In this document: positions 6,734 to 43,756 of the stretch, piece after piece
Numbering within the stretch: the first letter of the stretch is position 1
Layout of the letters: the number at the start of each line of letters is the position of its first letter
The notes under the pieces: model-generated
What the model was told of the DNA's origin: nothing
Databases searched by the model: none
Seen by the model: only the letters and a program-made list of their open reading frames with translations
From: Eubacterium sp.
Lineage (GTDB): Bacteria > Bacillota > Clostridia > Oscillospirales > Acutalibacteraceae
Length of the DNA: 64,000 nucleotides
Assembly: GCA_029258375.1 (NCBI GenBank)
Contig: JARHZA010000001.1
Span: 62,001-126,000, forward strand
Reading direction: 5' to 3'
Position numbers and translations under genes: made by a program

Positions 6734-7663
6734 TTACTTTTTAACGATCTTTCTTTCTGCAAAGAATTCATCAGATGCTGGTGCTTGTGTGTTGTAAACA
6801 ATATCAAGAGATGCACTCTTGTCTTTTACAATACCGAAAGCATTAGCGTGAGTAATAGAAATATGAATGTTTTCTAAGTAATCAGCCTTAACAATTTCGC
6901 CAGTTGCTGTATCAATTACGATTGTACCATAACCGCCATCATAATCTACGATAACGTTATCTGTTACGGAACCAGTTGTAAATGTAACAATACCTAATTC
7001 ATCTACAATGCCAGGAACGTCGCCAAGAACGTTAAAGAACTTACCTTGTGAGTCTGCCTTTTCTTTTGCATTTGTAACTTTTTTAGGTTGAATTTGAATT
7101 GTGATTGTTCCATCGTTGTTATCTTTTACATTACAGTTTTGAATATCTTCGCCTGTGAATGCAGAATCTGTGTATACGATTGAACCATCTGGTGACTTAT
7201 CGTTTTCTGGGCTATTACCACCATTTGGAGGGAGACCCTTTGCTTCTGACTTAAACTGGCTACCAGCAAGAGAACCAACAGTTTTATCAAGTGCTGGGTT
7301 TGCTTTGCCTTCAATGAGTAAGTTCTTGATTTCAAGAGTTTCTCCACCAAGGAGTTTATACATTGTTTGAGGTTTTCCATCAACAGTGTATTCTGCTGTT
7401 AATGTCTTTGTGTAGTTATAGCATTTAACATAGTATGCTGCTACATCTTCAGGTGTTTTGAATTCAACACCGCCGTATGTACCCGGTTTAAATTCTTCGA
7501 TAGCTGTTGCTACTGAACTTCCACCTGCATTGCCTTCTTGAGGCTGTGGGTCGTTACCTTTATAGAAGCTAACAACAAGTACAAGTGCAATTAAAGTAAT
7601 AACAAGAATAACTGCAAGTATTTTATTTATTGTGTCGAGTTTAGATTTAACTTTATAATTCAT
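6734..7663 (-). CDS. Membrane-anchored extracytoplasmic protein, unknown function
   Basis: I do not recognise this 309-residue protein. A basic N-terminus is followed by one hydrophobic segment (about residues 15-33), giving a signal anchor with the rest outside the cell. A Gly/Ser/Asn/Pro linker comes next, then a globular beta-rich domain (about residues 60-305). There is no lipobox cysteine and no sorting signal. The gene stands alone, with its own promoter (7690-7718) and terminator, and is divergent from the ClC gene. The start is supported by AAGGGGG upstream. Confidence 0.8.
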   Translation of the reverse strand: MNYKVKSKLDTINKILAVILVITLIALVLVVSFYKGNDPQPQEGNAGGSSVATAIEEFKPGTYGGVEFKTPEDVAAYYVKCYNYTKTLTAEYTVDGKPQTMYKLLGGETLEIKNLLIEGKANPALDKTVGSLAGSQFKSEAKGLPPNGGNSPENDKSPDGSIVYTDSAFTGEDIQNCNVKDNNDGTITIQIQPKKVTNAKEKADSQGKFFNVLGDVPGIVDELGIVTFTTGSVTDNVIVDYDGGYGTIVIDTATGEIVKADYLENIHISITHANAFGIVKDKSASLDIVYNTQAPASDEFFAERKIVKK

Positions 7664-7689
7664 AAGTCTAATTCCCCCTTGTTTTTATA

Positions 7690-7718
7690 ATAATAACCTA
7701 TTTGAAAAAATTTTTCAA
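7690..7718 (-). promoter_or_regulatory. Promoter of the 6734-7663 gene
   Basis: Minus strand: -35 TTGAAA at 7713-7718, 17-base spacer, -10 TATTAT at 7690-7695, about 27 bases upstream of the start codon. Confidence 0.7.
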
Positions 7719-7796
7719 CATTTTTTGTAAAATGATAGAAACATTTTTAATTATTTATTAAATTTCTTTAAATAATATGATACTTTGTTAACGTTT

Positions 7797-7915: not shown

Positions 7916-9490
7916 ATGAAAAATAAAGCTAAAAGTACTTACAGAAAAATCGAAGATAAACGAACTGAACCGCTATATCTTATGCTTTGTGGAATAGGAG
8001 TAGGAATTTCTGCTGGGCTTGTTTGTGTTTTATACAGATTTATGCTCACATTCGCAGAAGAATACTTATTTAAAATTATAGGTATAGTTAAAGGCAATCC
8101 TTTAAAAACAGCACTGTGGCTTATTGCTCTTGCTGTAATGGGTGTAATTGTATCTTTTATAATTAAGTGGGCACCACTTGCAAGTGGTTCTGGTATTCCT
8201 CAAATATCTGCAGAAATTAAAGGCTATGTTTCTCCAAGCTGGTGGAAAGTTTTAATTGCAAAATTAACAGGTAGTTCAATTACTATTTTAGCCGGTCTTT
8301 CTCTTGGCAGAGAAGGCCCAAGCGTTCAACTTGGTGGTATGGCTGCAAAAGGTGTTGCAAGAATCACTAAAGCTGACAGAACTACTGAAATACGAATGAT
8401 AAGTTGTGGTGCAGGCGCAGGTCTTGCTGCAGCATTTAACGCACCACTTGCCGGAATTATGTTCGTGCTTGAAGAAATCCACCATACTTTTGATAAATCA
8501 CTTCTTTGTATGGGCATAGTTTCAGCCGTTGTTGCAGACTTCGTATCAAAAATATTTTTTGGACAAGATACTATTTTTAACTATGAAACATCTCAAATTC
8601 CTTTAAAACAATATTGGATTTTAATTGTTTTAGGCATCGTGCTTGGACTTATGGGCGTAGGCTACAACATTATAATGGCTCACGGACAAGACTTCTTTAA
8701 AAAGTTCAACAAAATACCACAACCAATTAGATTTGCCGTTGTCTTTTTCATAAGTGGTGTGGTTGGTCTTTTTGTGCCAAGAATTCTTGGCGGTGGTCAC
8801 TCAATGGTTGAATTCCTTATAAACGACCACCCTGCCATTTCAGTAATGATATTTTTGCTTTTTGCCAAGTTTATTTTTGGTGCATTTAGTGCCGGTTCAG
8901 GTGCTCCCGGCGGTACACTTTATCCCCTCTTAATTTTAGGAACATATATAGGTGCAATTTTTGGAGACCTTTCAATAAATATTTTAGGTTTGCCTTCTGA
9001 TATTTGGCAAGAATTTGTTGTTCTTTCAATGGCAGGTTTCTTTGCATCAATAGTTCGTGCACCTATTACAGGCGTAGTTCTTGTTTTTGAATTAACTGGA
9101 AATATGGATAGTTTGCTTCCTCTTGTTATTGTTTGCTTAATTTCTTATACTGTTGCCGATATGTGTGGCGTTTCTCCAATTTATTCTACTTTACTTGAAA
9201 AATTCCTTACAAATAATAAAGACACAGAAACCCCAGTAAATACCGGTGAAAAAGTTTTGCAAACATTTGTTATACCAACCGGCAGTCCACTTAGAAACAA
9301 AAAGATTGCTGATATAGATTGGGGTAAACATTGTCTTATAGTTTCAGTTGAACGTGAAGAAAGAGCAATAACTCCAAAAGGCGATACAGTGCTAAAAGAA
9401 GGCGATGAACTAATAATGATGATTAGCCAAAGGTATTTCGCAAAAGATAAACGCAAAATTGAAAAAATAATAAAAGGAGCAAGCGAGTAA
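7916..9490 (+). CDS. ClC-family chloride channel or H+/Cl- antiporter with C-terminal TrkA-C domain
   Basis: This 524-residue membrane protein has the ClC signature segments GSGIPQ (near residue 91), GREGPSVQLGG with the gating glutamate, and a GSGAPGGTLYP loop in place of the usual GxFxP. About ten or more hydrophobic helices span residues 20-430. The last 80 residues form a soluble TrkA-C (RCK-C) ligand-binding domain, as in other bacterial ClC proteins. It probably moves chloride or fluoride-like anions in exchange for protons. It is a single-gene unit: divergent promoter, and a terminator that overlaps the stop codon. The ribosome binding site is weak (AGGG). Confidence 0.9.
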   Translation: MKNKAKSTYRKIEDKRTEPLYLMLCGIGVGISAGLVCVLYRFMLTFAEEYLFKIIGIVKGNPLKTALWLIALAVMGVIVSFIIKWAPLASGSGIPQISAEIKGYVSPSWWKVLIAKLTGSSITILAGLSLGREGPSVQLGGMAAKGVARITKADRTTEIRMISCGAGAGLAAAFNAPLAGIMFVLEEIHHTFDKSLLCMGIVSAVVADFVSKIFFGQDTIFNYETSQIPLKQYWILIVLGIVLGLMGVGYNIIMAHGQDFFKKFNKIPQPIRFAVVFFISGVVGLFVPRILGGGHSMVEFLINDHPAISVMIFLLFAKFIFGAFSAGSGAPGGTLYPLLILGTYIGAIFGDLSINILGLPSDIWQEFVVLSMAGFFASIVRAPITGVVLVFELTGNMDSLLPLVIVCLISYTVADMCGVSPIYSTLLEKFLTNNKDTETPVNTGEKVLQTFVIPTGSPLRNKKIADIDWGKHCLIVSVEREERAITPKGDTVLKEGDELIMMISQRYFAKDKRKIEKIIKGASE

Positions 9491-25020: not shown

Positions 25021-26940
25021 TTACTCTGCTTTAGTTAATTCGTATGTATCTTTATCAAAATCAACTGTAATTTGCCAGCCACCAGAAAAAGTAGTTCTTT
25101 GAACACGATAATTTTTATCCAAAAATTCGTGATTTAAAAGTTCTGCATTATATAATTTTTCATTTATAGATGCAATTTCTTTAACTTCATTTATATGTTC
25201 TGTTAAATCCTCATCATTTTTATAATCAAGGTCATCGCTCTCACGCATCGCCTTGTTTACATAAGGAGTTTGAGCATTTAAAATACAATGCATTTTACCG
25301 CTATCGCCGTCAGGAATACCCCAACCACCTTTGCCCTCGCATTTCCAAGGAACAAAAACACAATCGTGGTATACCAAGTTTGTAAATGGAACAGGAATAC
25401 CAACCTGTTCTCCACCACCTTGAGGTGTAACTGCATAAGGTGCGTGGTGCACAAGGTCTAAATATTTAACCATTTGGCAACCAAGTTCTTCACTACTTAC
25501 TATAAGACCTCTTTTTCTTAACATATCAAAGCATTTACCACGGTATTTTATGCTTTCTTTTCTTGTAACTCTGTGGTCTTTATGGTAACATTCGTCGCCA
25601 GCCATAATGCCAAAAACATCTAAATATGTGCCGTCAATATTTATGTTTTGCTCTGCAAGTTCATCATATGTACGCTTAACGTGTTCCTTTGCAAACTTAC
25701 TGCAAAGCCAGTTGTGTGGACCACCTGCCCAAACGCCACAATATGGTGCTTTGCCGTTTACATCATAAACACATTTTTCTTTATCATAAACTGGGCTATC
25801 TTGATAGTAATCTCTGTACTGATCGTGAAGTCCAAACAAATATCCAAGATCTTGGCAAGTTTCGCTAAGTCTTTTCATACCGTCAAAACCGCCTATTTTA
25901 TCGCTTGGCGGAAGAATATATGGGTGAAGATTATCGTAACCTCTGTTTCCCCATCCATCTGTATGAACATAAACTTTATCAAGTCCACATTTTTTAAGAT
26001 GTTTGAACTCCTCAATAGTTTCATCAAAAGTATGATGAACTTTATCAAGAATTTTTGTTTCTTTATAAATCACTGTTCCTGGTTCATTATGTTCATATAA
26101 ATTCCAGTGTAGTACAGGTGTGCCAATAAGTTTTGCAACGTTAGGGTTAGATTTAATTTTATCATCAATAGTAATTAAGTTGCCTTTTTTCATTTCGTGT
26201 TTTCTAAAATCTTTTGCCATAGAAACATAGTTGCAACCCTTATAAAATCTTGTGTGAAGTGTTCTTTCATAAGATAATTTGCCAAGTGAACCAAGCCAGT
26301 TGCTTGAAGTTATAAGTGCTTTATCGTTGCCGTAGCAAGAACCCAAAGTTAAATCGTAACTTTCATCAGCAAATGCAGAATAACCATATTCACCACAAAC
26401 TCTTCCCCACAAAGGCATATAAGCATCGCCTGTGTTAACTTTTCTCCAATACTTTGTTAAAAGCAAAATTTGCTTGCGATTTTTCTTAAAAGTATCTGGC
26501 AACATAACACCTTGGCGAAAAGCCTCTACTGAATAGGCATTTTCTTTATTATATTCTTTAGCATTAAATGGTGCAGGATAGTAAGCAGCTTTGAAGTCAC
26601 ATTCGCCCTCATAAGATGCTTTAATTGAAAAATCAATTTTACCGTTATCCTTAACCGTTGCAGTTGTAGTAAAAACAGCCGGAATTTTTTTGCCATAAAC
26701 AATAAAACCACTAAATGTACTAACTATACTATTATCAACTGCTTTGTGACTTTTTTTAAGTGCGCTTGAAAACAAAGCAAAAAACCAACAATATTTTCCA
26801 AACATTTTTCTTTGAAAAACAAGGTGTGCTGGTCTGCCCTGAGTTTCCCACTTAAATCCATCTCTTTCAACCTCATACTTTAAGTTATTGCTTAAAAGCG
26901 TAAGAGTTGTGCCACTGTGCTTTACAACAATTTTTTTCAT
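25021..26940 (-). CDS. Putative glycoside hydrolase-like TIM-barrel protein (DUF5696-like)
   Basis: A 639-residue protein without signal peptide, so cytoplasmic. The N-terminal third looks like a beta-sandwich. The centre (about residues 300-530) looks like a TIM barrel: KVYVHTDGWGNRGYD, LFGLHDQYRDYY, DGTYLDVFGIMAGDE and LIVSSEELGC. These are placed like the acidic catalytic residues of GH101-type barrels, and the overall pattern recalls DUF5696 proteins. The family assignment is tentative and the substrate unknown. It is downstream of fucU on the same strand and divergent from an AraC regulator, which suggests fucose-containing or related glycans. Confidence 0.6.
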   Translation of the reverse strand: MKKIVVKHSGTTLTLLSNNLKYEVERDGFKWETQGRPAHLVFQRKMFGKYCWFFALFSSALKKSHKAVDNSIVSTFSGFIVYGKKIPAVFTTTATVKDNGKIDFSIKASYEGECDFKAAYYPAPFNAKEYNKENAYSVEAFRQGVMLPDTFKKNRKQILLLTKYWRKVNTGDAYMPLWGRVCGEYGYSAFADESYDLTLGSCYGNDKALITSSNWLGSLGKLSYERTLHTRFYKGCNYVSMAKDFRKHEMKKGNLITIDDKIKSNPNVAKLIGTPVLHWNLYEHNEPGTVIYKETKILDKVHHTFDETIEEFKHLKKCGLDKVYVHTDGWGNRGYDNLHPYILPPSDKIGGFDGMKRLSETCQDLGYLFGLHDQYRDYYQDSPVYDKEKCVYDVNGKAPYCGVWAGGPHNWLCSKFAKEHVKRTYDELAEQNINIDGTYLDVFGIMAGDECYHKDHRVTRKESIKYRGKCFDMLRKRGLIVSSEELGCQMVKYLDLVHHAPYAVTPQGGGEQVGIPVPFTNLVYHDCVFVPWKCEGKGGWGIPDGDSGKMHCILNAQTPYVNKAMRESDDLDYKNDEDLTEHINEVKEIASINEKLYNAELLNHEFLDKNYRVQRTTFSGGWQITVDFDKDTYELTKAE

Positions 26941-27060
26941 ATTTTTCTCCTAAAATAAAGTCTTTGCCAAAAAAATAATAGACTTTCCCTATTATTTAAA
27001 ATTAAGTATTTAAAGAATTTAATACTTAATTACATATTAAGTTGTGCATTTGCTCTATTA

Positions 27061-27486
27061 TTAAAGAACGCATCCTTTTTTAAGAATAATATTTGCATAT
27101 TGCTTTTCTTCGCCTGTTGCAATTACTGCATAAGCATTTTTTGCTCTTTCATAATAATCAAATCTTTCAACAAAAGTTGGCTCTGCATTTGGTTCATATT
27201 TTTTAACAATTTTTTTATAATCTTCCCAAATGCTTGTGTCTGCTGTATCGCCTTCACATTTTTGCATTAAAACAAAGTTGTTGCTGTCGTATTGGTCAAG
27301 AGGAAACAACTGCATAACTGCATTTAACATATCGCAAGCAGAAATACCATCTGCTCTTACAAGATTTTTTGCTAAATTTGCAGAAGGAAAATTACCATCT
27401 GCAATAACAATTTCATCACCATGACCCATTTCACAAAGAACTTTAAGTAATTCTGGAGATATAATTTTTGGTACATTTTTAAGCAT
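27061..27486 (-). CDS. fucU: L-fucose mutarotase (RbsD/FucU family)
   Basis: FucU interconverts the alpha and beta anomers of L-fucose. The 141-residue protein has the family start LKNVPKIISPELLKVLCEMGHGDEIVIADGNFPS, with the conserved active-site His and Asp, and YERAKNAYAVIATGE near the C-terminus. The FucU rather than RbsD subgroup is suggested by this N-terminal pattern. It is the first gene of a two-gene unit with the GH-like gene and is divergent from the AraC gene, so local induction by a sugar is likely. Confidence 0.88.
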   Translation of the reverse strand: MLKNVPKIISPELLKVLCEMGHGDEIVIADGNFPSANLAKNLVRADGISACDMLNAVMQLFPLDQYDSNNFVLMQKCEGDTADTSIWEDYKKIVKKYEPNAEPTFVERFDYYERAKNAYAVIATGEEKQYANIILKKGCVL

Positions 27487-27653
27487 ATTCTTTTTTTCCT
27501 TTCATTATAAAAAATTTAATAAAATTATAAATATATTAGAATTTATATGATAATTGACATCATTATTCTTTTATTATACAATCAATTTTACCAAGAAACT
27601 TGCGAAATTCAATCAAAAAGTTTAGAAATACTATCACGAAAGGCTTAATATTT

Positions 27654-28502
27654 ATGAAATGCACAGAGAATGGCGTTTTAAATAATTCAGAGGTTTATTT
27701 TTCCTCTCCTTCGCAAACGGCACAAAGACTTCATTATTACCCAATAAGTGCAGGTCATTTTTTCTGTAATAATAATTACCATCTTGTTCGTAAAGATTAC
27801 GATAGCATTTTGATTGCACATATTTTAAATGGTAGTTTTACATTTTTAAAAAACAATAAATATATTACTGCCCATAGTGGAGATACTGTTATAATAGACT
27901 GCCATAAACAACACGAATATTATACAAACGAAAGCGTTGAATTTGTGTGGCTACATATTAGTGGCGGTAATTCTTATGATATTTTTAAAGAAATAGAAAA
28001 TTCTTACGGCAATGTTATAAAGTGTAATGATACTATTCATATTAAAAATTTATTTTTTAATATCATAGATGATATAAACAGCAAAATTCCTCCATCAGAA
28101 GTAAATCTATCTTTAGATATTTATAAAATATTTGCTGAACTTTTAAACCCAAAAACAACAAAAAACGAACAAAAAGACTTGCATGATGAAAATATTGCAA
28201 AATTAAAAATTCACATAAATGAAAATTTAAGCGAAAACTTATCTGTTAAATATCTTGCAGACTTTATGCATATGAGCAGTTCACATTTTTCAAGAGTTTT
28301 TAAACAAAAAACTGGATTTTCACCTTATGACTATGTTTTAATTTCTCGTTTAAACAAAGCAAAAAACCTGCTACAAAAAACTAATAAAACAGTTGCAACA
28401 ATTGCCAGTGAAACTGGATTTAATAGTGAATCTAATTTCATATACTTTTTTACAGAAAATGTTGGTCTTTCTCCAAGAAAATTTAGAAATTTAGAATTTT
28501 AG
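27654..28502 (+). CDS. AraC family transcriptional regulator
   Basis: A 282-residue regulator. The first 150 residues form a cupin-like sensor domain (GHFFCNNNYHLVRKDYDS, HSGDTVIIDCHKQHEYY), and residues 185-280 carry the double helix-turn-helix (SVKYLADFMHMSSSHFSRVF and VATIASETGFNSESNFIYFF). The longest frame begins with TTG and has no ribosome site, so I chose the ATG at 27654 after GAAAGG. It is divergent from fucU and the GH-like gene, which it probably controls in response to a sugar. Confidence 0.9.
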   Translation: MKCTENGVLNNSEVYFSSPSQTAQRLHYYPISAGHFFCNNNYHLVRKDYDSILIAHILNGSFTFLKNNKYITAHSGDTVIIDCHKQHEYYTNESVEFVWLHISGGNSYDIFKEIENSYGNVIKCNDTIHIKNLFFNIIDDINSKIPPSEVNLSLDIYKIFAELLNPKTTKNEQKDLHDENIAKLKIHINENLSENLSVKYLADFMHMSSSHFSRVFKQKTGFSPYDYVLISRLNKAKNLLQKTNKTVATIASETGFNSESNFIYFFTENVGLSPRKFRNLEF

Positions 28503-28595: not shown

Positions 28596-28641
28596 GAAAC
28601 CAAATTAGAAATAATTTTAATTACTTTAAGGAGTGTTTATT

Positions 28642-29214
28642 ATGAAAAATAAAAAGTTAGTTATCAGCCTTAGCGTTGTTGCAGTTATACTTGTTGCTAT
28701 TATCGCTGGCGTTATTTCAACTTACAATGGTCTTGTTTCAAAATCAGAAACAGTAAGCAATTCTGAAGCACAAATTCAAACTAACCTTCAACGTCGTGCA
28801 GACTTAATTCCTAACCTTGTTGAAACAGTTAAAGGTTACGCTGCTCATGAAGAAGGTGTATATACCGCCCTTGCAGATGCAAGAGCAAAACTTAACTCTG
28901 CATCAAACCCAGAGGAATACACCGCAGCTGACAAAGAATATCAATCTGCAATTTCAAGACTTCTTGTTGTTGTAGAGAATTACCCAGAACTTAAAGCTAA
29001 TCAAAACTTTATAAACCTTCAAGATGAACTTGCAGGAACAGAAAATAGAATTGCAACAGCACGCAAAGACTATAACGATGCTGTTACAAACTACAATAAA
29101 TCTATTAAAAAATTCCCAGCAGTTATTTTTGCAGGTATGTTAGGCTTTGAAAAAGCAGAATATTTCGAGGCAACACCTGAATCTCAACAAGTTCCATCAG
29201 TTTCATTCAAATAA
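28642..29214 (+). CDS. lemA: LemA family protein
   Basis: LemA proteins are small, helical, membrane-anchored proteins of unclear role. This one has 190 residues: one N-terminal transmembrane helix (about 7-27), then a long coiled-coil-like helical domain with the family signature NLQRRADLIPNLVETVKGYA and a LFAGMLGFE-like end. A GTG inside the AAGGAG box would extend the frame, but the ATG at 28642 is correct. It precedes the TPM-domain gene, and the lemA-TPM pairing is widespread in bacteria. Confidence 0.94.
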   Translation: MKNKKLVISLSVVAVILVAIIAGVISTYNGLVSKSETVSNSEAQIQTNLQRRADLIPNLVETVKGYAAHEEGVYTALADARAKLNSASNPEEYTAADKEYQSAISRLLVVVENYPELKANQNFINLQDELAGTENRIATARKDYNDAVTNYNKSIKKFPAVIFAGMLGFEKAEYFEATPESQQVPSVSFK

Positions 29215-29239
29215 ATTTTATTTTTAACGGTAATCATAT

Positions 29240-30019
29240 ATGAAAAGATTTTTAAACATTTTTATTGCGACTTTAATCCTTTTGTTGACTTTACCAATTT
29301 CAGCCTTTGCAGGTGAATTTAGAGAACCAACAAACAATTTCTTTGTTAACGACTTTGCAGACGTTATTGATAGCAAAGATGAAGAAGAAATTATGGCAAT
29401 AGGTTCAAGTCTTTTTAAACAAACAACTGCACAAGTAGTAGTTGTTACTGTTGATTCACTTGACGGCTATAATGAAAAAGAATATGCCCTTAAACTTGGA
29501 CGTGAATGGGGCGTTGGAAGCAAAGATAAAAACAATGGCGTTGTTTTGCTTATGGCAGTTAAAGAAAGAAAAGTAACTATTCAAGTTGGATATGGTCTTG
29601 AAGGTTGCCTTCCAGACGGTAAAACCGGCAGAATTCTTGATGACTACGCTATACCACACCTATCTAAAAATGATTTTTCAACTGGTTTAACAGAGGCATA
29701 CAAAGCAATCACATCAATTGTTTATGAAGAATATGATGTTACTCCCGAAGTTGATTACGATTACAAAGAATATATAAAAGATGATAAAAATGAAAAAATT
29801 TTTACAATTTTGCAAACAATCATCATTTTAGTAATTGTTTTAGTAATTACATTTGCTGGTAGAGGCAAAGGTAAAAAAAATGGTAGCACTGTAATTTTTG
29901 GCCCTTTCTACGGCAGCAGCAGTAACAATTCTGACTTCGGCGGCTTTTCTGGTGGCGGAGGTGGATTCTCCGGCGGTGGAGGCTCATTTGGTGGCGGCGG
30001 TTCATCAAGAGGCTTTTAG
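29240..30019 (+). CDS. TPM domain protein with glycine-rich tail (YgcG-like)
   Basis: The 259-residue protein has a signal peptide (cleavage near SAFA-G), a TPM domain (about residues 30-170, starting FVNDFADVIDSKDEEEI and containing LMAVKERKVTIQVGYGLEG), one transmembrane helix (about 193-212), and a Gly/Ser/Phe-rich tail of GGGGFSGGGG type. Proteins with this layout commonly accompany LemA. Some TPM domains act as phosphatases or in photosystem repair, but no function can be fixed here. It is cotranscribed with lemA and closed by a strong terminator. Confidence 0.92.
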   Translation: MKRFLNIFIATLILLLTLPISAFAGEFREPTNNFFVNDFADVIDSKDEEEIMAIGSSLFKQTTAQVVVVTVDSLDGYNEKEYALKLGREWGVGSKDKNNGVVLLMAVKERKVTIQVGYGLEGCLPDGKTGRILDDYAIPHLSKNDFSTGLTEAYKAITSIVYEEYDVTPEVDYDYKEYIKDDKNEKIFTILQTIIILVIVLVITFAGRGKGKKNGSTVIFGPFYGSSSNNSDFGGFSGGGGGFSGGGGSFGGGGSSRGF

Positions 30020-30047: not shown

Positions 30048-30081
30048 AAAGACCACTTGCGTAATCAAGTGGTCTTTTTTT
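30048..30081 (+). terminator. Terminator of lemA-TPM operon
   Basis: Arms AAAGACCACTTG and CAAGTGGTCTTT with a 6-base loop, followed by T7. Confidence 0.92.
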
Positions 30082-30408: not shown

Positions 30409-32988
30409 ATGCAAAAATACACAAAGTCAAGTCGTGTACTTGCGTTCATTCTTTGCTTTGCAATGTTTGTTACAATGTTTCCGCTTCAAGCACTTGCTGC
30501 AAATGATGAAATATATCTAAAAAACGGCACAGCCAAAATCACAGCTGATATGACAACTGAACAAGTTAAAGAAGCTATTTTTGGCGCATTAGTTGAAAAC
30601 CCAGAAGGCAAAGATGCACAATCAATTGAATGGGAATATGGTTGTGATGGTAAAAACGGTCTTTTAGTTAACTGGGCTTACGGTAGTATTGAAGGCTTCC
30701 AAAGCAAAAAAGCACTTACATACTACACTCACCCTGCAATTAAAGATATTGCAGACGGCACATACAACGTTCGTCTTAAAGGCACAGAAAACTTTGTTAG
30801 ACTTACAAAAACAGCAGAAGATGTAACTGCTCCTGAAAAACCAGAAAAACAAATTTCTCTTAAAGACGGTCAATTAGTTGTTAAGCCAGAAATGACAACA
30901 GAACAAATTAAAGCTGAACTTTTCAAAGCTTTAGTTGTTAACCCAGAAGGTTTAGATCCTCAAGCAATCGAATGGGAATATGGTTGCGACGGTAAAAATG
31001 GTCTTTTAGTTAACTGGGCTTATGGTAGCATTGAAGGCTTCCAAAGCAAAAAGGCTCTTACTTACTACACACACCCTGCTCTTAAAGATATTGTAGACGG
31101 CACATACAACATTCGTATTAAAGGCTATGATAACTTTGTTAGACTTACAAAAGTTACAGAAGAACCTGTAGTTCCTGAAGTTCCTGAATCAAACGTTGTT
31201 CTTAAAGATGGCTCAGCTATTTTAAGTGCTGATATGACTTCAGAACAAGTTAAAGATATTCTTTTCAAAACATTAGTTGCTAACCCAGCAGAAGTTGATG
31301 CTAAGGCAATCGAATGGGAATATGGTTGCGACGGTAAAAACGGTCTTTTAGTTAACTGGGCTTACGGTAGCGTAGATGGCTTTACAAGTAAAAAAGCTCT
31401 TACAGAATATGCTCACCCAGCAATTAAAGATATTGCAGATGGCACATACAATGTTCGTATTAAAGGTTCAGAAAACTTTGTAAGATTCACTAAAGAATCA
31501 AAGCAAATCCCAGATGCTCAAATCGTTATCAACGAAAATATTGCACCTGTTGAACTTCATCTTAAAGACAACCTTGCAGTAGACTATGATCGTTTTGCAA
31601 CTGATCTTTTCAAAGCAGTTTACAATGCTGAAAAATCAAGCCCAAGCAATCTTACTGCAAAAGATGTTACATTCCAATATGATGCATCACGTTTAGACAC
31701 TATTCCAATTTGGCAAAATCTTGATTTTGTTGACAAAACAAATGTTCAAAGACCTCTTTCTGAAGGTGGCACTTATAAATTTAAGATGACTGTTGCTGAA
31801 ACAGCTGATCATCACGGTGTAACAGTTGAATTCAAAGCAGACGTTAAAAACGCTACTCGTATTGATTCATCAATTGTTTTCACAAAGAAAACATTCACTT
31901 ACACAAGTGACTACAATGCAATGAGAGAAGCTATCTTCAAGTCAGCAATTGACTGGAAAGCATCTAACCTTCCAAATCCAAGCGAATGTGGTTTAGAAAA
32001 CTATACAATTGAATACTATGCAGAAAACCTTATCGCAGGCCAACCAGCAGGTACAAAGAGATGGGTTCCACTTGAAGGTGGCAGATTCCCTATCCTCTAC
32101 TATCCAGCAATGGGTGCCGGCGAACACCAAATTAGAATTAAGTTTAAAGGTAATTCAACACACTCAGCTGTTGTTGCTGAAAAAACTATCACTGTTAAAA
32201 AAGCAAGAACTTATGTAAATGTTCATAGCACAAGCAAATATGCAGATGAAAAGTTCCCAGCAAACTTCGTAACAACTTCAGCAAAAGATAAGTTAGATAT
32301 TTACACAATCTATGCTGGTATTACAAGTTCAACAACTGCTGCATTCTGCGTAGATCTTCCAGATTCAATCACAGAAAGCTTCTTTATTACTCTTCTTAAC
32401 CCAATTGTTAAACTTGTTATTGGCAAATCAATGACAGAAGTTATTAACAACGGTATCACACTTGCAGAAATTAACGCAGTAGTTAATTCTCAAGCATTAA
32501 AAGACCTTATTGCTAAATTGAATATTGACCTTGGTGTTGCAGGTACTGTTCTTAAAATTTTAGATAAACTTCCATCATCATTACAAAATATTACAATTAG
32601 CTTTAACGAACCAAACAAAGCTGGTTTCTACAACGTTGTAGCTCTTGCTATTAACCCTAACTATGAAGTTGGTGTTGGTTTTGGTGTTGCAACTGTTAAA
32701 ATGCGCTATAGACAAACTGCTCTTCAGTTCAACCAACAGTTTGAATCTCGTCACCTTACTGTAGATCAGGCAAAAGAATTTGACTTCAACGCAACTCTTT
32801 CTTACCAAGGTGTTGCAGTAGATCAAAGTTCTGTTCATTATCTCTACTCAGGATTCAAGAGAAATGGTCGTGTATATTCAAGCACAACTGAAGCTCCAAC
32901 AGAACCAGGTTATTATGTTCAAACAGTTGTAATTTTAGGCGGTAACTATATGGCTGCTCCAATTACAAGAACATTTACAATTAAATAA
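30409..32988 (+). CDS. Large secreted multidomain repeat protein, paralogue 1
   Basis: I recognise no named family. The 859-residue protein has a signal peptide (residues 1-30, ALA-A). Three near-identical 100-residue repeats follow at 35-134, 149-248 and 263-362, joined by 14-residue Pro/Glu/Thr/Val linkers. Each repeat contains TTEQVKEAIF-like helix, IEWEYGCDGKNGLLVNWAYG, HPA[I/L]KDI and DGTYN[V/I]R[L/I]KG. Residues 372-480 and 486-595 look like diverged versions of the same unit. The C-terminal 260 residues seem to include Ig-like folds (GTPV-type ends near 840). There is no LPxTG, membrane anchor or S-layer motif. Confidence 0.88.
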   Translation: MQKYTKSSRVLAFILCFAMFVTMFPLQALAANDEIYLKNGTAKITADMTTEQVKEAIFGALVENPEGKDAQSIEWEYGCDGKNGLLVNWAYGSIEGFQSKKALTYYTHPAIKDIADGTYNVRLKGTENFVRLTKTAEDVTAPEKPEKQISLKDGQLVVKPEMTTEQIKAELFKALVVNPEGLDPQAIEWEYGCDGKNGLLVNWAYGSIEGFQSKKALTYYTHPALKDIVDGTYNIRIKGYDNFVRLTKVTEEPVVPEVPESNVVLKDGSAILSADMTSEQVKDILFKTLVANPAEVDAKAIEWEYGCDGKNGLLVNWAYGSVDGFTSKKALTEYAHPAIKDIADGTYNVRIKGSENFVRFTKESKQIPDAQIVINENIAPVELHLKDNLAVDYDRFATDLFKAVYNAEKSSPSNLTAKDVTFQYDASRLDTIPIWQNLDFVDKTNVQRPLSEGGTYKFKMTVAETADHHGVTVEFKADVKNATRIDSSIVFTKKTFTYTSDYNAMREAIFKSAIDWKASNLPNPSECGLENYTIEYYAENLIAGQPAGTKRWVPLEGGRFPILYYPAMGAGEHQIRIKFKGNSTHSAVVAEKTITVKKARTYVNVHSTSKYADEKFPANFVTTSAKDKLDIYTIYAGITSSTTAAFCVDLPDSITESFFITLLNPIVKLVIGKSMTEVINNGITLAEINAVVNSQALKDLIAKLNIDLGVAGTVLKILDKLPSSLQNITISFNEPNKAGFYNVVALAINPNYEVGVGFGVATVKMRYRQTALQFNQQFESRHLTVDQAKEFDFNATLSYQGVAVDQSSVHYLYSGFKRNGRVYSSTTEAPTEPGYYVQTVVILGGNYMAAPITRTFTIK
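30511..31494 (+). repeat. Three 300-bp coding repeats (342-bp period) in paralogue 1
   Basis: Units at 30511-30810, 30853-31152 and 31195-31494, with 42-bp linkers. DNA identity is high in the central part of each unit, so recent duplication or gene conversion is likely. Confidence 0.9.
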
Positions 32989-33002
32989 TCTTTAAAATTT
33001 TT

Positions 33003-33035
33003 AAAGGCTCAACATTAGTTGGGCCTTTATTTTTT
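33003..33035 (+). terminator. Terminator of paralogue 1
   Basis: Arms AAAGGCTCAAC and GTTGGGCCTTT (one mismatch) with an ATTA loop, followed by a T-rich tract. Confidence 0.85.
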
Positions 33036-33434
33036 TATAATATTCACAATAATTATTATAAAAAATGAATTTATATAAATTTTTTGTTCACTTAACAATT
33101 CGCTAAATATTATACATATTGGAGTATTTTGTAATTATTTTGCTATTTGTTCTATTTTAACAGTTCAAAAATTATGTGCAATTAAACTATTTGTTATAAA
33201 ATTAACTATTTTTTGGTTTATGCAAAATAACCAATTCGTTTGATATTTCTTACAAATAAAATGCAAAAAATGGTATATTTTTATGTAACAATTTTCTATA
33301 CATTTGAATAAACATAGTGCATTTTAAACAAAATTTAACAATATAAAAAATAAATATTGTGCTATATGTTGCTTTATGCTAATATAAGAACAACATTTTA
33401 TGCGCATAATCTGGAATGTTAAGGAGTAGAAAAA
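33036..33434. other. Long leader/promoter region of paralogue 2
   Basis: No gene. It holds CTATTTGTTATAA at 33187-33199 and TTTATGCAAAATAACCAAT at 33217-33235, both also present upstream of paralogue 3 at nearly the same spacing. A possible promoter is TTGTGC-17-TAATAT (33357-33385). AAGGAG precedes the start. Confidence 0.55.
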
Positions 33435-35063
33435 ATGAAAAAATATAATAAAACAAGTAGGTTGATTGCCTTGGCGCTTTCAATTGCAATGCTTATAGGT
33501 GTATGTCCACTTCAAGCATTTGCAGCAGACAATTCTTCAAACCCAGCACAAAGCGTTAGCGCTGAAAAAAGTGCTGTTAAATCTGAAATAGTTCTTAAAG
33601 AAAATTTTGGAAGCGTTAAGCTTTATAAAAACAACAACCTTTCAATAAACTTTGATCGTTTTCGTGAAGATCTTTTCAACGCAGTTTATGATGCTACAAA
33701 ATCAACACCAAACAATCTTACTTTTAAAGATGTTAACTGGCAATATGATGCTTCTCGTTTAAGCACAATTCCAATTTGGCAAGCCCTTGAATTTGTAGAC
33801 TCAACAAATGTTCAAAAATCAATTGCCGAAGGTGGTTCATTCAAATTTAGAATGATTCTTCCAGAAACAGCAGAACATTCAGGAGCAAAGGTTGAATTTA
33901 CTGCAACAGTAGAAAAAGCTCCTCTTGTTGAATCTAAAATCAACTTCACAAACAAAGCAATTACATATTCAAAAGATGCAAACGTTCTTAAACAAGAGTT
34001 ATTCAAATCAGCAATTGATTGGAAAAATTCATCTCTTCCAAATAACGAACAATTCGGAATCGAATACTTCACTATTGAATATTATGCACAAAATATTTTA
34101 TCAAATGGTAAACCAGGCGGAATTAAAAGATGGGTTCCAATTGAAGGTGGAAAATTCGCTCTTCTCAACTACCCAGCAATGAGCGCTGGCGATCACCAAG
34201 TAAGAATTACATTCAAAGGTAATTCAGAATTTACATCAGCAGTTGCTGAAAAAACAGTTTCTGTAAAAAAAGCAAGAACTGCAGTTAACGTTAAAACAAT
34301 GGACAAGTTTGCAGATGAAAAACTTCCAGCAGATTTTGTTACAACATCAGTAAAAGATAATTTTGAAATCTTCACAATCTTTATTGGCACAACAAGCGCA
34401 ACAACTGGAAGCCTTTGTGTTGATCTTCCAGATTCAATCACAGAAAACTTCTTAATTGATCTTCTTAACCCAATCGTTAAACTTGTTATTGGCAAATCAA
34501 TGGATGATATTATTAACAACGGTATTACAGTTGCAGAAATTAACGCAGTAGTTAATTCTCAAGCATTAAAAGACCTTGTTACAAAATTAAATATCGATCT
34601 TGGTATTATAGGAACTCTTCTTAACATTTTAGAAAAGCTACCTCCATCATTACAAAAATTCAACATTAGTTTCAGTGATCCAAAAATTGCTGGTTTATAT
34701 AATGTTGTAGCACTTGCTATCAACCCTAACTATGAAACAGGTTTTGGCGTTGGTATTCTTAACAATAAAATGAGAAACCAAACAACAGAACTTAAATATA
34801 ACCAAGAAATTCAAAATCGCAAATTAACTGTTGACGAAGCTAAAAACTTTGATTTTAAAGCAACCCTTTCATATCAAGGTTCTCCTGTTGCAGATCAAAG
34901 TGTAGTAAGCTATCTTTACTCAGGTGTTCAATCAAATGGACGTCCATATTCAAGCAAAACAACACCTCCAACCGAACCAGGTACATACACACAAACAGTT
35001 TGTATAATTGGTGGTAACTATATGGCATCTCCTGTTACAAGAACATTCACAATAGTTAAATAA
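33435..35063 (+). CDS. Large secreted repeat-family protein, paralogue 2 (short form)
   Basis: The 542-residue protein has a signal peptide (cleavage near AFA-AD). It then aligns with the C-terminal two thirds of paralogues 1 and 3: the DRFREDLFNAVYDATKS domain, the FKSAIDWKNSSLPN domain, the NPIVKLVIGKSMDDIINNG segment and the final Ig-like part. The three N-terminal 100-residue repeats are missing, replaced by a short Ser/Ala/Asn spacer. It has no sorting signal. The function is unknown. It has its own terminator and long upstream region, so the three paralogues are probably separate transcripts. Confidence 0.88.
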   Translation: MKKYNKTSRLIALALSIAMLIGVCPLQAFAADNSSNPAQSVSAEKSAVKSEIVLKENFGSVKLYKNNNLSINFDRFREDLFNAVYDATKSTPNNLTFKDVNWQYDASRLSTIPIWQALEFVDSTNVQKSIAEGGSFKFRMILPETAEHSGAKVEFTATVEKAPLVESKINFTNKAITYSKDANVLKQELFKSAIDWKNSSLPNNEQFGIEYFTIEYYAQNILSNGKPGGIKRWVPIEGGKFALLNYPAMSAGDHQVRITFKGNSEFTSAVAEKTVSVKKARTAVNVKTMDKFADEKLPADFVTTSVKDNFEIFTIFIGTTSATTGSLCVDLPDSITENFLIDLLNPIVKLVIGKSMDDIINNGITVAEINAVVNSQALKDLVTKLNIDLGIIGTLLNILEKLPPSLQKFNISFSDPKIAGLYNVVALAINPNYETGFGVGILNNKMRNQTTELKYNQEIQNRKLTVDEAKNFDFKATLSYQGSPVADQSVVSYLYSGVQSNGRPYSSKTTPPTEPGTYTQTVCIIGGNYMASPVTRTFTIVK

Positions 35064-35067
35064 TTTA

Positions 35068-35101
35068 AAAACCCAGCTGTAAAAAGCTGGGTTTTTACTT
35101 T
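35068..35101 (+). terminator. Terminator of paralogue 2
   Basis: Arms AAAAACCCAGCT and AGCTGGGTTTTT with a GTAAAA loop. Confidence 0.9.
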
Positions 35102-35562
35102 TTATTTTTTACTGTTTCACAAAACTAAAAAATAATTTTAATATTCTCTAAAACTATCACACAATTCGTATATTTCATTAACAATTTATTTCTAATTTAT
35201 TAACGATAAAAACGAGTTGAAAATCCAATGTGATAATAAAATCAAACTACTATTTGTTATAATGTTAATAACTATTATTATAATCACGATTATCAAATCT
35301 ACTATTTGTTATTTTTAAAATGATAATACGTTTATGCAAAATGACCAATAAACTACTTTTATTGCCCTTTTTTAATTAAAAATGCAACTGCTTTTTTGTC
35401 ATTTATTTCTTATTTGTTAACAAGCTGTGGTAATGTTCAATAAATATTAATTATTTGTTTAAAAATTCTTGTATTATATAGTATGTTTGTGATAACATAG
35501 TAACTGTTATTGTGCAGAGGAAAAAAGCACAAATATTATATTATGTTAGGAGTAAAAATATT
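35102..35562. other. Long leader/promoter region of paralogue 3
   Basis: No gene. CTATTTGTTATAA occurs at 35250-35262 and, shorter, at 35302-35312. TTTATGCAAAATGACCAAT is at 35331-35349, 29 bases after the second copy, as upstream of paralogue 2 (30 bases). TTAGGAG precedes the start codon. Confidence 0.55.
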
Positions 35563-38151
35563 ATGGTAAGACATAATAAAATGAGCAAGTTCATTGCTCT
35601 ATTGCTTGCAGTTGTAATGCTTATTGGCGTTTTCCCAATTCAAGCACTTGCAAGTGATGAAATCAACCTAAAAAACGGTTCAGCAAAAATCACTGCTGAC
35701 ATGACTACTGAGCAAGTTAAAGAAGCTCTCTTTAAAGCATTAGTAGCAAATCCAGAGGGCAAAGATGCTCAATCAATCGAATGGGAATACGGTTGTGACG
35801 GTAAATTTGGTCCATTTGTTAACTGGGCTTACGGTAGCATAGAAGGCTTCCAAAGCAAAGTAGCACTTTCATATTATGACCACCCAGCACTTAAAGATAA
35901 TGCAGATGGCACATATAATGTTCGTATTAAAGGCACAGAAAACTTTGTAAGACTTACAAAAACAAATGAAGATGTTACTACTCCAGAAACACCAGACACA
36001 CAAATTTCTCTTAAAGATGGTTCAGCAGTTATCACTTCTGATATGACAACTGAACAAGTTAAAGAAGTTCTCTTTAATACATTAGTTGCTAACCCAGAAG
36101 GCAAAGACGCTCAATCAATTGAATGGGAATATGGCTGCGACGGCAAAAACGGTCTTTTAGTTAACTGGGCTTATGGTAGCATTGAAGGCTTCCAAAGTAA
36201 AAAAGCTCTTACATACTATGATCACCCAGCACTTAAAGATATTGAAAACGGCACTTACAATATTCGTATTAAAGGTGCAGAAAACTATGTAAGATTCACA
36301 AAAATCGCAGAAGAAACAACTGAACCAGAAACTCCAGATGTTCCTGTTGTAAAAGTAGTTCTTAAAGATGGTGTTGCAAAAATTACTTCTGATATGACTA
36401 CTGAACAAGTTAAAACTGCTCTTTATGACGCTTTAGTTGTTAACAAAGATGAAGTAGATGCTCAATCAATTGAATGGGAATATGGTTGTGACGGTAAAAA
36501 TGGCCTTTTAATTAACTGGGCTTATGGTAGCATTGAAGGCTTCCAAAGCAAAAAAGCTCTTACATATTATGACCACCCAGCTCTTAAAGATATCGCTGAT
36601 GGCGGCTACAACGTTCGTGTTAAGGGATCAGAAGAATTTGTAAAACTTACAAAAACAACTAAAGATTTTGTTCAATCAAACATCGTACTTAAAGAAAACT
36701 ATGGCAACATTGCTCTTTACCTCAACGATGACCTTTCAACAAACTTTGCACGTTTCAGCGAAGATCTTTTCAACACAGTATATGATGCTGAAAAATCAAC
36801 ACCAGGCACTCTTACTGCAAAAGATGTTACTTTCCAATATGACGCATCTCGTTTAGATACTATTCCAATTTGGCAAAACCTTGATTATGTTGACCCAACA
36901 AACATTCAAAAGTCACTTGCTGAATGTGGCACATTCAAATTTAAAATGACAGTTCCAGAAACAGAAAGTTATTATGGAACTTCAATCGAATTTACAGCAA
37001 CTGTTGAAAATGCTGTACGTGTTGATTCTAAAATTGAATTCACAAACAAAACAATCAACTATTTAAGCGATGCAGAAGCATTAAGAGACAATATTTTCTC
37101 TTCTGTAATCGACTGGAAAAAATCAGTTCTTCCAAACTCAGAAGAATATGGTAAAGAATATTACACAATCGAATATTTTGCAGAAAACCTTGTTGCTGGC
37201 AAACCAGGCGGCACAAAGAGATGGGTTCCTCTTGAAGGTGGCACATTCTCACTTCTCTATTACCCAGCAATTAGCGCTGGTGAAAACCAAATTAGAATTA
37301 CATTTAAGGGTAATTCAACTCATACTTCTGCTTCATTAGAACAAGCAGTTACAATTAAAAAGGCAAGAACTTTTGTTAATGTTAAAAGCACAGAAAAATT
37401 TGCAGATGAAAAATTCCCAGCAGATTTTGTAACAACATCTTCAAAAGATCCTTTCCAAATCTTCACAATCTTTATCGGTACAACAAGTTCTGTTACTGGT
37501 AACCTCTGCATTGATCTTCCAGATTCAATTACAGAAAGTTTCTTAATTGATCTTCTTAACCCAATCGTTAAACTTGTTATTGGCAAATCAATGGATGACA
37601 TCATCAATAACGGTATAACACTTGGTGAACTTAATGCAGTGCTTAACTCACAATCATTTAAAGATTTTGTTGCTGCATTCCACATTGACCTTGGTGCTAT
37701 TGGAACAGTTCTTGATATTTTAGATAAACTTCCACCATCATTACAAAAATTCAACATTTCATTTAGCGAACCAAACGTAGCTGGTATGTATAATGTTGTT
37801 GCTCTTGCAATTAACCCTAACTACGAAACAGGTGTTGGCGTTGGTATGGCAGTTGTAAAGATGAGAAATGTTGGCACAAAACTTGCTTACAACCAAAAAA
37901 TCAATCGTGGTAAAATCACTGTTGAAGAAGCTAAGAACTTCGACTTTACAGCAACACTTACACACCAAGGCATTGCTGTAAGCCAAAAATCTGTTCATTA
38001 CCTCTACACAGGTATTAAATCAAACGGACGTCCTTATATTAGTACAACAGAAGCTCCAAGAGAAGCTGGTATCTACACAGAAACAGTTGTAATCTTAGGC
38101 GGTAACTATATGGCTGCTCCTCAAACAAGAACATTTAGAATTGTAAAATAA
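35563..38151 (+). CDS. Large secreted multidomain repeat protein, paralogue 3
   Basis: The 862-residue protein has the same layout as paralogue 1: signal peptide (residues 1-30), repeats at 34-133, 148-247 and 265-364, then the two diverged domains and the C-terminal part. Repeat 1 deviates in its core (GKFGPFVNWAYG, KVALSYYDHP), while repeats 2 and 3 are close to those of paralogue 1. The last linker is 17 residues. I start at the ATG at 35563, behind GGAG. The frame is open to a GTG at 35512, but that adds a non-signal peptide. The family and function are unrecognised. Confidence 0.88.
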   Translation: MVRHNKMSKFIALLLAVVMLIGVFPIQALASDEINLKNGSAKITADMTTEQVKEALFKALVANPEGKDAQSIEWEYGCDGKFGPFVNWAYGSIEGFQSKVALSYYDHPALKDNADGTYNVRIKGTENFVRLTKTNEDVTTPETPDTQISLKDGSAVITSDMTTEQVKEVLFNTLVANPEGKDAQSIEWEYGCDGKNGLLVNWAYGSIEGFQSKKALTYYDHPALKDIENGTYNIRIKGAENYVRFTKIAEETTEPETPDVPVVKVVLKDGVAKITSDMTTEQVKTALYDALVVNKDEVDAQSIEWEYGCDGKNGLLINWAYGSIEGFQSKKALTYYDHPALKDIADGGYNVRVKGSEEFVKLTKTTKDFVQSNIVLKENYGNIALYLNDDLSTNFARFSEDLFNTVYDAEKSTPGTLTAKDVTFQYDASRLDTIPIWQNLDYVDPTNIQKSLAECGTFKFKMTVPETESYYGTSIEFTATVENAVRVDSKIEFTNKTINYLSDAEALRDNIFSSVIDWKKSVLPNSEEYGKEYYTIEYFAENLVAGKPGGTKRWVPLEGGTFSLLYYPAISAGENQIRITFKGNSTHTSASLEQAVTIKKARTFVNVKSTEKFADEKFPADFVTTSSKDPFQIFTIFIGTTSSVTGNLCIDLPDSITESFLIDLLNPIVKLVIGKSMDDIINNGITLGELNAVLNSQSFKDFVAAFHIDLGAIGTVLDILDKLPPSLQKFNISFSEPNVAGMYNVVALAINPNYETGVGVGMAVVKMRNVGTKLAYNQKINRGKITVEEAKNFDFTATLTHQGIAVSQKSVHYLYTGIKSNGRPYISTTEAPREAGIYTETVVILGGNYMAAPQTRTFRIVK
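35662..36654 (+). repeat. Three 300-bp coding repeats in paralogue 3
   Basis: Units at 35662-35961, 36004-36303 and 36355-36654. The first two are one 342-bp period apart, and the third is shifted by 9 bp because of a longer linker. Confidence 0.9.
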
Positions 38152-38163
38152 CTAAATAACATT

Positions 38164-38200
38164 AAAGCCCAACTGTAAAAAGTTGGGCTTTTGTTTTAGT
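38164..38200 (+). terminator. Terminator of paralogue 3
   Basis: Arms AAAGCCCAACT and AGTTGGGCTTT with a GTAAAA loop, the same loop as the terminator of paralogue 2. Confidence 0.9.
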
Positions 38201-38792: not shown

Positions 38793-38828
38793 TTACATAA
38801 GTATATAATGCGTTAACCGCTTTATATA

Positions 38829-38970
38829 AAACAAAGAAAAAAACGCAAAGCACATACATATTATATGTGCAAGAGTCGGTAGGTAGCCCGACCGTCTTAT
38901 CATAGATAAGGTAAGTAACCTTCCCTCCTGGGTTGTCCGTTCTTTGTTCATAATATTTGTTTTGGGAGGG
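38829..38970 (+). promoter_or_regulatory. yjdF-type (azaaromatic-sensing) riboswitch
   Basis: A structured leader sits directly upstream of a yjdF gene. The outer stem is AACAAAGAA (38830-38838) with TTCTTTGTT (38940-38948). Inside are the conserved-looking ACGCAAAGC, the hairpin GCACATA/TATGTGC, the GGTAGGTAGCCCGACC hairpin and the CTTATC/GATAAG hairpin. CCCTCC at 38923-38928 can pair with the Shine-Dalgarno sequence GGAGGG (38965-38970), so the likely output is translational. The class is assigned from gene context plus motif recall, without a covariance-model search. Confidence 0.8.
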
Positions 38971-38977
38971 ATTTATT

Positions 38978-39394
38978 ATGGACGAAGTAATATGCAATTT
39001 AACGGTGTTTTTTGAGAATCCATTTTGGGTAGGATTGTTTGAACGTGTAGAAAACAATCGTCTTTCTGTTTCAAAAGTAACTTTTGGTGCTGAACCTAAA
39101 GATTACGAAGTTTACAGTTTTATCTTAAAAAACTATTGTAATTTGCAATTCAGTCCCGCTGTGCCAACTGTTGTAAAAGAAACAAAAACTAATCCAAAAA
39201 GAATGCAACGTCAAATAAAAAAGCAAATGCGTCAAAATGGAATGGGAACAAAATCGCAACAAGCATTAAAACTACAACACGAGCAATCAAAACTTTTGCA
39301 TAAACAAAAGAGTAAAGCACAAAAAGATGCTGAACTAAAACGCAAGTTTGAACTAAAACAGCAAAAGAAAAAGAATAAGCACAAAGGAAAATGA
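38978..39394 (+). CDS. yjdF: YjdF family protein (DUF2992)
   Basis: A 138-residue cytoplasmic protein of unknown biochemical function. The family pattern is complete: VFFENPFWVGLFERVENNRL at the start, VTFGAEPKDYEVYSFILKN next, and a very basic C-terminal half with NPKRMQRQIKKQ, GTKSQQALKLQ and a Lys-rich coiled tail. In other Firmicutes the gene is controlled by a riboswitch for azaaromatic compounds, and such a leader is present here. The start at 38978 is fixed by GGGAGGG. A role in coping with toxic aromatic molecules is a hypothesis. Confidence 0.9.
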   Translation: MDEVICNLTVFFENPFWVGLFERVENNRLSVSKVTFGAEPKDYEVYSFILKNYCNLQFSPAVPTVVKETKTNPKRMQRQIKKQMRQNGMGTKSQQALKLQHEQSKLLHKQKSKAQKDAELKRKFELKQQKKKNKHKGK

Positions 39395-43472: not shown

Positions 43473-43484
43473 GAACCTAATATA

Positions 43485-43756
43485 AACCGTTGATGCGGAG
43501 ATAAAAGTAAGATACGAACTCACAGAGAGCCACGTTGCTGGGAAGTGGCAGTAAACGACTTGCTAAATGGACCGCTGAGGGTGCAATGAAAGGCTTTTGC
43601 CGAGTATCTTGCAACGTAAAGACTTACGTTAGTAGTCAGAGATATGTTGGTATCTCACAAAGGGTACGGAATTTAATTGTTCCGTAAAGCAGGGTGGCAC
43701 CGCGATATGATTATTCGTCCCTGACAGCAGATTATTTCTGTTGTCAGGGATTTTTG
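43485..43756 (+). promoter_or_regulatory. T-box riboswitch, specifier TGG (tRNA-Trp)
   Basis: A classical T-box leader. The specifier loop has TGG at 43568-43570 followed by ACCGCTGAGGGTGC. The T-box proper AGGGTGGCACCGCG is at 43691-43704. The terminator arms TCCCTGACAGCAGA and TCTGTTGTCAGGGA (43718-43750) end in T5. Uncharged tRNA-Trp should favour the antiterminator and switch on trpB and the TrpA homologue. Confidence 0.95.

Follow-up and report, generated by a model that had tools for sequence, protein, structure and literature searches.

Periscope-type surface proteins carry repeats in variable number and project an N-terminal functional domain. Here we describe three tandem genes for secreted proteins (paralogues 1 to 3) in a window of 64,000 nucleotides from Eubacterium sp. 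(assembly GCA_029258375.1, contig JARHZA010000001.1, positions 62,001-126,000 of the forward strand; coordinates are those of the window unless another locus is named). The proteins consist of a signal peptide and domains that we call A to E, C being a second B-type unit (Table 1). As in periscope-type proteins, a conserved N-terminal domain (A) is combined with probable immunoglobulin (Ig)-like spacer units (B) that vary in number among relatives. They differ from that type in that the N-terminal domain is itself repeated in the window species and that no sorting signal is present. We favour, with a probability of roughly 0.45, the reading that these are secreted extracellular binding proteins in which A is the tip, B the rod or spacer and D-E the attaching base. 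The same estimate extends to a component of this reading, namely that A would be a specialised, undescribed member of a family of helix-bearing Ig-like units of which the B-type units are plainer members.

An earlier note on this stretch had proposed three tandem secreted paralogues, the second of them without a repeat cassette. Both proposals agree with our results: the open reading frames (ORFs) lie as given in Table 1, a Sec-type signal peptide is clear in all three (judged by eye, not by a predictor), and paralogue 2 contains no A unit. Paralogues 1 and 3 have three A units each, about 107 residues in length. The six units are in register at the DNA level, with 77-84% identity to the reference copy (DNA repeat family D1), and their amino-acid identity is 68-85% over 99 codons (15 pairs). 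The description "near-identical" thus suits the core, IEWEYGCDGKNGLLVNWAYG, and is overstated for the whole unit. An AlphaFold2 model of one copy (31177-31506, which also provides the residue numbering of A) gave a predicted local distance difference test score of 92.8 and the order strand-helix-six strands (strand 12-15; helix 22-33; strands 47-55, 58-65, 69-73, 76-80, 89-95 and 101-107). A comparison of 23 A units of all origins shows 16 positions without variation in any row that has a residue there (22 or 23 units): G12, L33, N36, W47, E48, Y49, C51, G53, N60, G64, G68, F69, H80, P81, A82 and R94.

Database searches with A gave nothing convincing. In Pfam, five families matched the 23 units at an E-value of 1 or less, the best at 0.024 (DUF5104, two units), and the modelled window unit matched none at that level; the best E-value of A against PDB sequences was 0.036. 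NCBIfam gave nothing above cut-off for the window proteins (best E-value 0.0085). The Rib and atypical Rib families (PF08428, PF18938) offered no usable link by sequence. An hhalign comparison of A with seven Rib stretches returned a probability of 0.35%; its score of 8.4 was above the maximum of 6.2 from 30 column shuffles. In Z, unrelated rows were tied. The Rib model (PF08428) had no match in the window genome, and Rib surface adhesins are wall-attached whereas the window proteins are without a wall signal.

B and C had been suspected to be diverged copies of the A-type unit, and profile comparisons together with predicted structure indicate that they are. A profile made from B-type units only (74 units, with pieces of 86 residues or fewer left out) recovered 17 of the 23 A units at an E-value below 0.01 (size 1000), the best at 9.5e-7 and mostly along most of the unit; the six that were missed had E-values of 0.033 to 1.6. 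None of 920 shuffled units passed (best 0.07), nor did any reversed unit (best 0.53). Unit bounds were taken from an iterated profile that had absorbed both A and B kinds. The reverse search was weaker, the A profile finding 6 of 74 B units at the same threshold. Aligned by hhalign, A and B gave a probability of 96% (E-values 4e-9 to 6e-9, 81-98 columns) and scores of 49-51 against a maximum of 9.5 among 30 column shuffles. The structure prediction of units that the earlier note had suggested points the same way, since in an AlphaFold2 model of the BCDE stretch the predicted order of elements in C is that of A.

A tyrosine (71 of 74 B units) and an arginine (60 of 74) are common to A and B, and these shared residues point to a scaffold. 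The W, C, N, F and H fixed in A are mostly different in B, which has alanine at the Cys column in 48 of 74 units and tyrosine at the His column in 50 of 74. A reactive or catalytic A, whose lone invariant Cys and invariant His and Arg would act on a partner or form a thiol bond with it, could draw on these replacements and on the invariance of C51, H80 and R94 in 23 of 23 rows. However, the arginine also occurs in B, no enzyme family scored above cut-off in the Pfam and NCBIfam scans, and Ig-like folds are seldom enzymes. We consider such a chemistry highly improbable.

The earlier statement that no named family fits holds for A, which is without a convincing Pfam match, and fails for its sister units B and C, which are weakly linked to Big_3_5 (PF16640, bacterial Ig-like group 3). 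This model matched 16 of 17 BCDE stretches at an E-value of 1 or less (best 2.1e-6) and reached 38.1 bits, above its cut-off of 35.5, in one relative out of the four that were scanned whole. By contrast, the whole window proteins scored 21.5, 19.4 and 17.5 bits and the BCDE stretch of paralogue 1 scored 26.9. Big_3_5 is not among the families matching any of the 23 A units, and the link passes via the B units only. A further difference is the helix after the first strand in our A and B models.

The two remaining domains, D and E, look Ig-like in the predicted models, in line with the Ig-like C-terminus proposed earlier. Neither D nor E showed a detectable sequence link to the A unit. MBG_3 (PF18887) matched the C-terminal stretches weakly (11 of 17 at an E-value of 1 or less, best 0.0022), but it attained at most 19.6 bits against a cut-off of 25 (five whole proteins with scores), and D here differs by its helical insert, which is about 75 residues long.

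That the proteins are without a recognised wall anchor was confirmed. None of the three C-termini has a hydrophobic tail or an LPXTG-type sorting signal, and no Pfam or NCBIfam anchor domain scored above cut-off in the paralogues. The sole row with an anchor name was NCBIfam choice_anch_X in paralogue 2 (17 residues, E-value 0.12, 12.1 bits against a cut-off of 25), and the one LPETA of paralogue 2 is internal, inside its B domain. The proteins could therefore be soluble and released to the medium, as a matrix component or decoy unattached to their own cell; anchoring features are missing although the genome has a sortase (one), and the chain stops directly after the last Ig-like strand. Against this, no other domains are as conserved as D and E, a pattern that fits a fixed job, for example in attachment or assembly; non-covalent attachment via an undescribed domain is also conceivable. 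Release is thus an option that we take seriously and hold to be doubtful. An assembly role of another kind, in which the Ig-like domains would be bricks of a self-assembling surface layer or fibre and A would provide the subunit contacts, appears improbable.

A scan of GTDB contigs yielded 18 loci in other Clostridia, from Gemmiger, Pseudoflavonifractor, Heritagella, Dysosmobacter, Mediterraneibacter, Tyzzerella and others; at least five are from genomes that were also part of our genome survey (below). Fifteen encode a signal, one A, two to five B units, D and E in a single frame, so that A-D-E is constant and the B count varies. Three A units, as in two of the window proteins, occur at none of the 18. 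Among 14 relatives, mean pairwise identity was 0.65 for A, 0.68 for the D sandwich and 0.72 for E; the last two B units (0.52 and 0.54) and the helical insert of D (0.58) had lower values. With conserved ends and a middle that is less conserved and variable in number, we infer binding for A, spacing for B and attaching for D-E.

Under this favoured reading, the conserved N-terminal A domain or domains would form a ligand-binding tip, the B units would serve as a spacer that can be extended, and D-E, the conserved end, would provide non-covalent attachment, either to the cell envelope or to further copies. The window species would have multiplied both its tips (three A units in two proteins) and its genes (three). 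Host mucus, a glycan or another microbe would be candidate ligands, and the most likely role, judged from sequence and models, is extracellular binding in the gut. The absence of widely common neighbours fits a gene working alone. Several points weigh against the reading: 1) with no anchor, the protein may simply be released; 2) the conserved A residues can be structural; 3) the BCDE model has a predicted template modelling score of 0.55, and the rod shape is conjectural; 4) A has no close structural precedent in the PDB (0 matches at an E-value of 0.001 or less); 5) paralogue 2 lacks A, so that A is dispensable for some functions of the family; and 6) the neighbour comparison, in which no gene was common to more than four of 20 stretches, is weak for loci rich in GC, at which antisense frames were often chosen by the ORF caller.

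The family is spread patchily over several genera of Oscillospiraceae and Lachnospiraceae. In the genome survey, 398 genomes of the window's taxonomic family gave six matches to the A profile and eight to the D-E profile, the latter being the six A genomes, G215 and the marginal G251 (E-value 9.2e-6). Six further genomes of the genus were negative with both profiles. Two of 291 class genomes matched, both from the window's family, and the single match among 249 phylum genomes was the window's own. In that genome (1.7 Mb, 98.5% complete) the family matches are these three paralogues only. They form one group in the gene tree (support 100/99), on which the three copies are one lineage-specific expansion. 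Since paralogues 2 and 3 are closer within it (94/90), paralogue 2 most likely lost the A cassette. Tandem genes seem to occur in G123 as well, because a further E domain ends at the start of one of its contigs (C14, locus L017, 8-166).

D-E identity is high across family borders: two Mediterraneibacter loci (Lachnospiraceae) share 73 and 76% with Gemmiger sp. An120 (Oscillospiraceae), as much as two Pseudoflavonifractor species share with each other (75%). Two other Lachnospiraceae loci share less with Gemmiger, 48% (Tyzzerella) and 67% (L046). The high cross-family identity, combined with neighbours that differ at most loci, tentatively suggests horizontal transfer; the gene tree is mostly open (10 of 14 inner branches).

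At three of the 18 loci, two of them from one metagenome-assembled genome (MAG) and one from a Roseburia MAG, A is out of frame with the remainder. In the former two, L016 (from 7283-7753) and L017 (from 710-1180), signal and A form one ORF, the remainder is open in another frame, and in both the change of frame follows directly after A. In the Roseburia locus, L047, the frame of A shifts at seven consecutive G (about 8002-8012); slipped-strand variation could explain this, as could an error of assembly. A more ambitious proposal would make A a new ligand-binding Ig-like family with a helix replacing part of the sheet and a conserved Trp-Cys-Asn-Phe-His set, which would serve as tip on a secreted rod without an anchor, be passed between orders of gut Clostridia and be frame-switched in some lineages. 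Taken as a whole, we find it rather unlikely.

Two carriers are isolates from chicken caecum, according to passages of PMC8269260. Chicken is also named in the record of one carrier. Further carriers, the An strains and ChiGjej, are presumably of chicken origin too. Cultured carriers include Gemmiger gallinarum DSM 109015 and Pseudoflavonifractor gallinarum DSM 107456. Because it occurs patchily over genera and in cultured isolates from chicken, the family lends itself to a direct test of its binding partner. With the A unit, the Ig-like surface proteins gain an undescribed domain whose predicted fold is confident and whose invariant residues form a clear set; for the A-B-D-E family as a whole, no Pfam or NCBIfam model above cut-off names the window proteins.

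Table 1. Features of the three-gene cluster and its surroundings (window coordinates).
Feature	Position	Strand	Remarks
Terminator-like hairpin (intrinsic type) ahead of paralogue 1	30048..30077	+	
Paralogue 1	30409..32988	+	859 residues; signal peptide, A1-A2-A3-B-C-D-E
Signal peptide, paralogue 1	30409..30498	+	Sec-type, by eye
A unit 1, paralogue 1	30499..30825	+	
A unit 2, paralogue 1	30838..31161	+	
A unit 3, paralogue 1	31177..31506	+	copy used for structure model
B domain, paralogue 1	31525..31845	+	diverged unit, Big_3_5-related
C domain, paralogue 1	31855..32196	+	second B-type unit; element order as in A
D domain, paralogue 1	32197..32715	+	Ig-like sandwich, helical insert at about 32362-32589
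E domain, paralogue 1	32716..32985	+	C-terminal, Ig-like; most conserved part of the family
Terminator-like hairpin behind paralogue 1	33002..33029	+	
Paralogue 2	33435..35063	+	542 residues; signal peptide, B-C-D-E, without A unit
B and C domains, paralogue 2	33591..34265	+	
D and E domains, paralogue 2	34266..35060	+	
Terminator-like hairpin behind paralogue 2	35066..35097	+	
Paralogue 3	35563..38151	+	about 862 residues from likely ATG; signal peptide, A1-A2-A3-B-C-D-E
A unit 1, paralogue 3	35650..35973	+	
A unit 2, paralogue 3	35989..36315	+	
A unit 3, paralogue 3	36328..36657	+	
B and C domains, paralogue 3	36685..37356	+	
D and E domains, paralogue 3	37354..38148	+	
Terminator-like hairpin behind paralogue 3	38164..38191	+	

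The ORF of paralogue 3 opens at a GTG (35512). Its start is most likely the ATG at 35563, because AGGAG precedes this codon and the signal peptide begins there. Given a hairpin behind each gene and one ahead of the first, the three genes may be transcribed separately; on both strands, the region holds 15 terminator-like sites compared with a mean of 4.3 in shuffles.

Immediately ahead of the cluster are a LemA gene and then a TPM-domain gene (28633-30019). Further upstream, at 25021-28502, genes for a DUF5696/GH101-like protein, FucU and an AraC-type regulator are grouped, and a homologue of the FucU gene is also found near the relative in L017. Behind the cluster, an azaaromatic (yjdF) riboswitch (RF01764, 72 bits) lies directly 5' of a DUF2992 (YjdF-type) gene (38827-39394), and a T-box leader (RF00230, 99.3 bits, 43481-43725) precedes an ORF at 43741.
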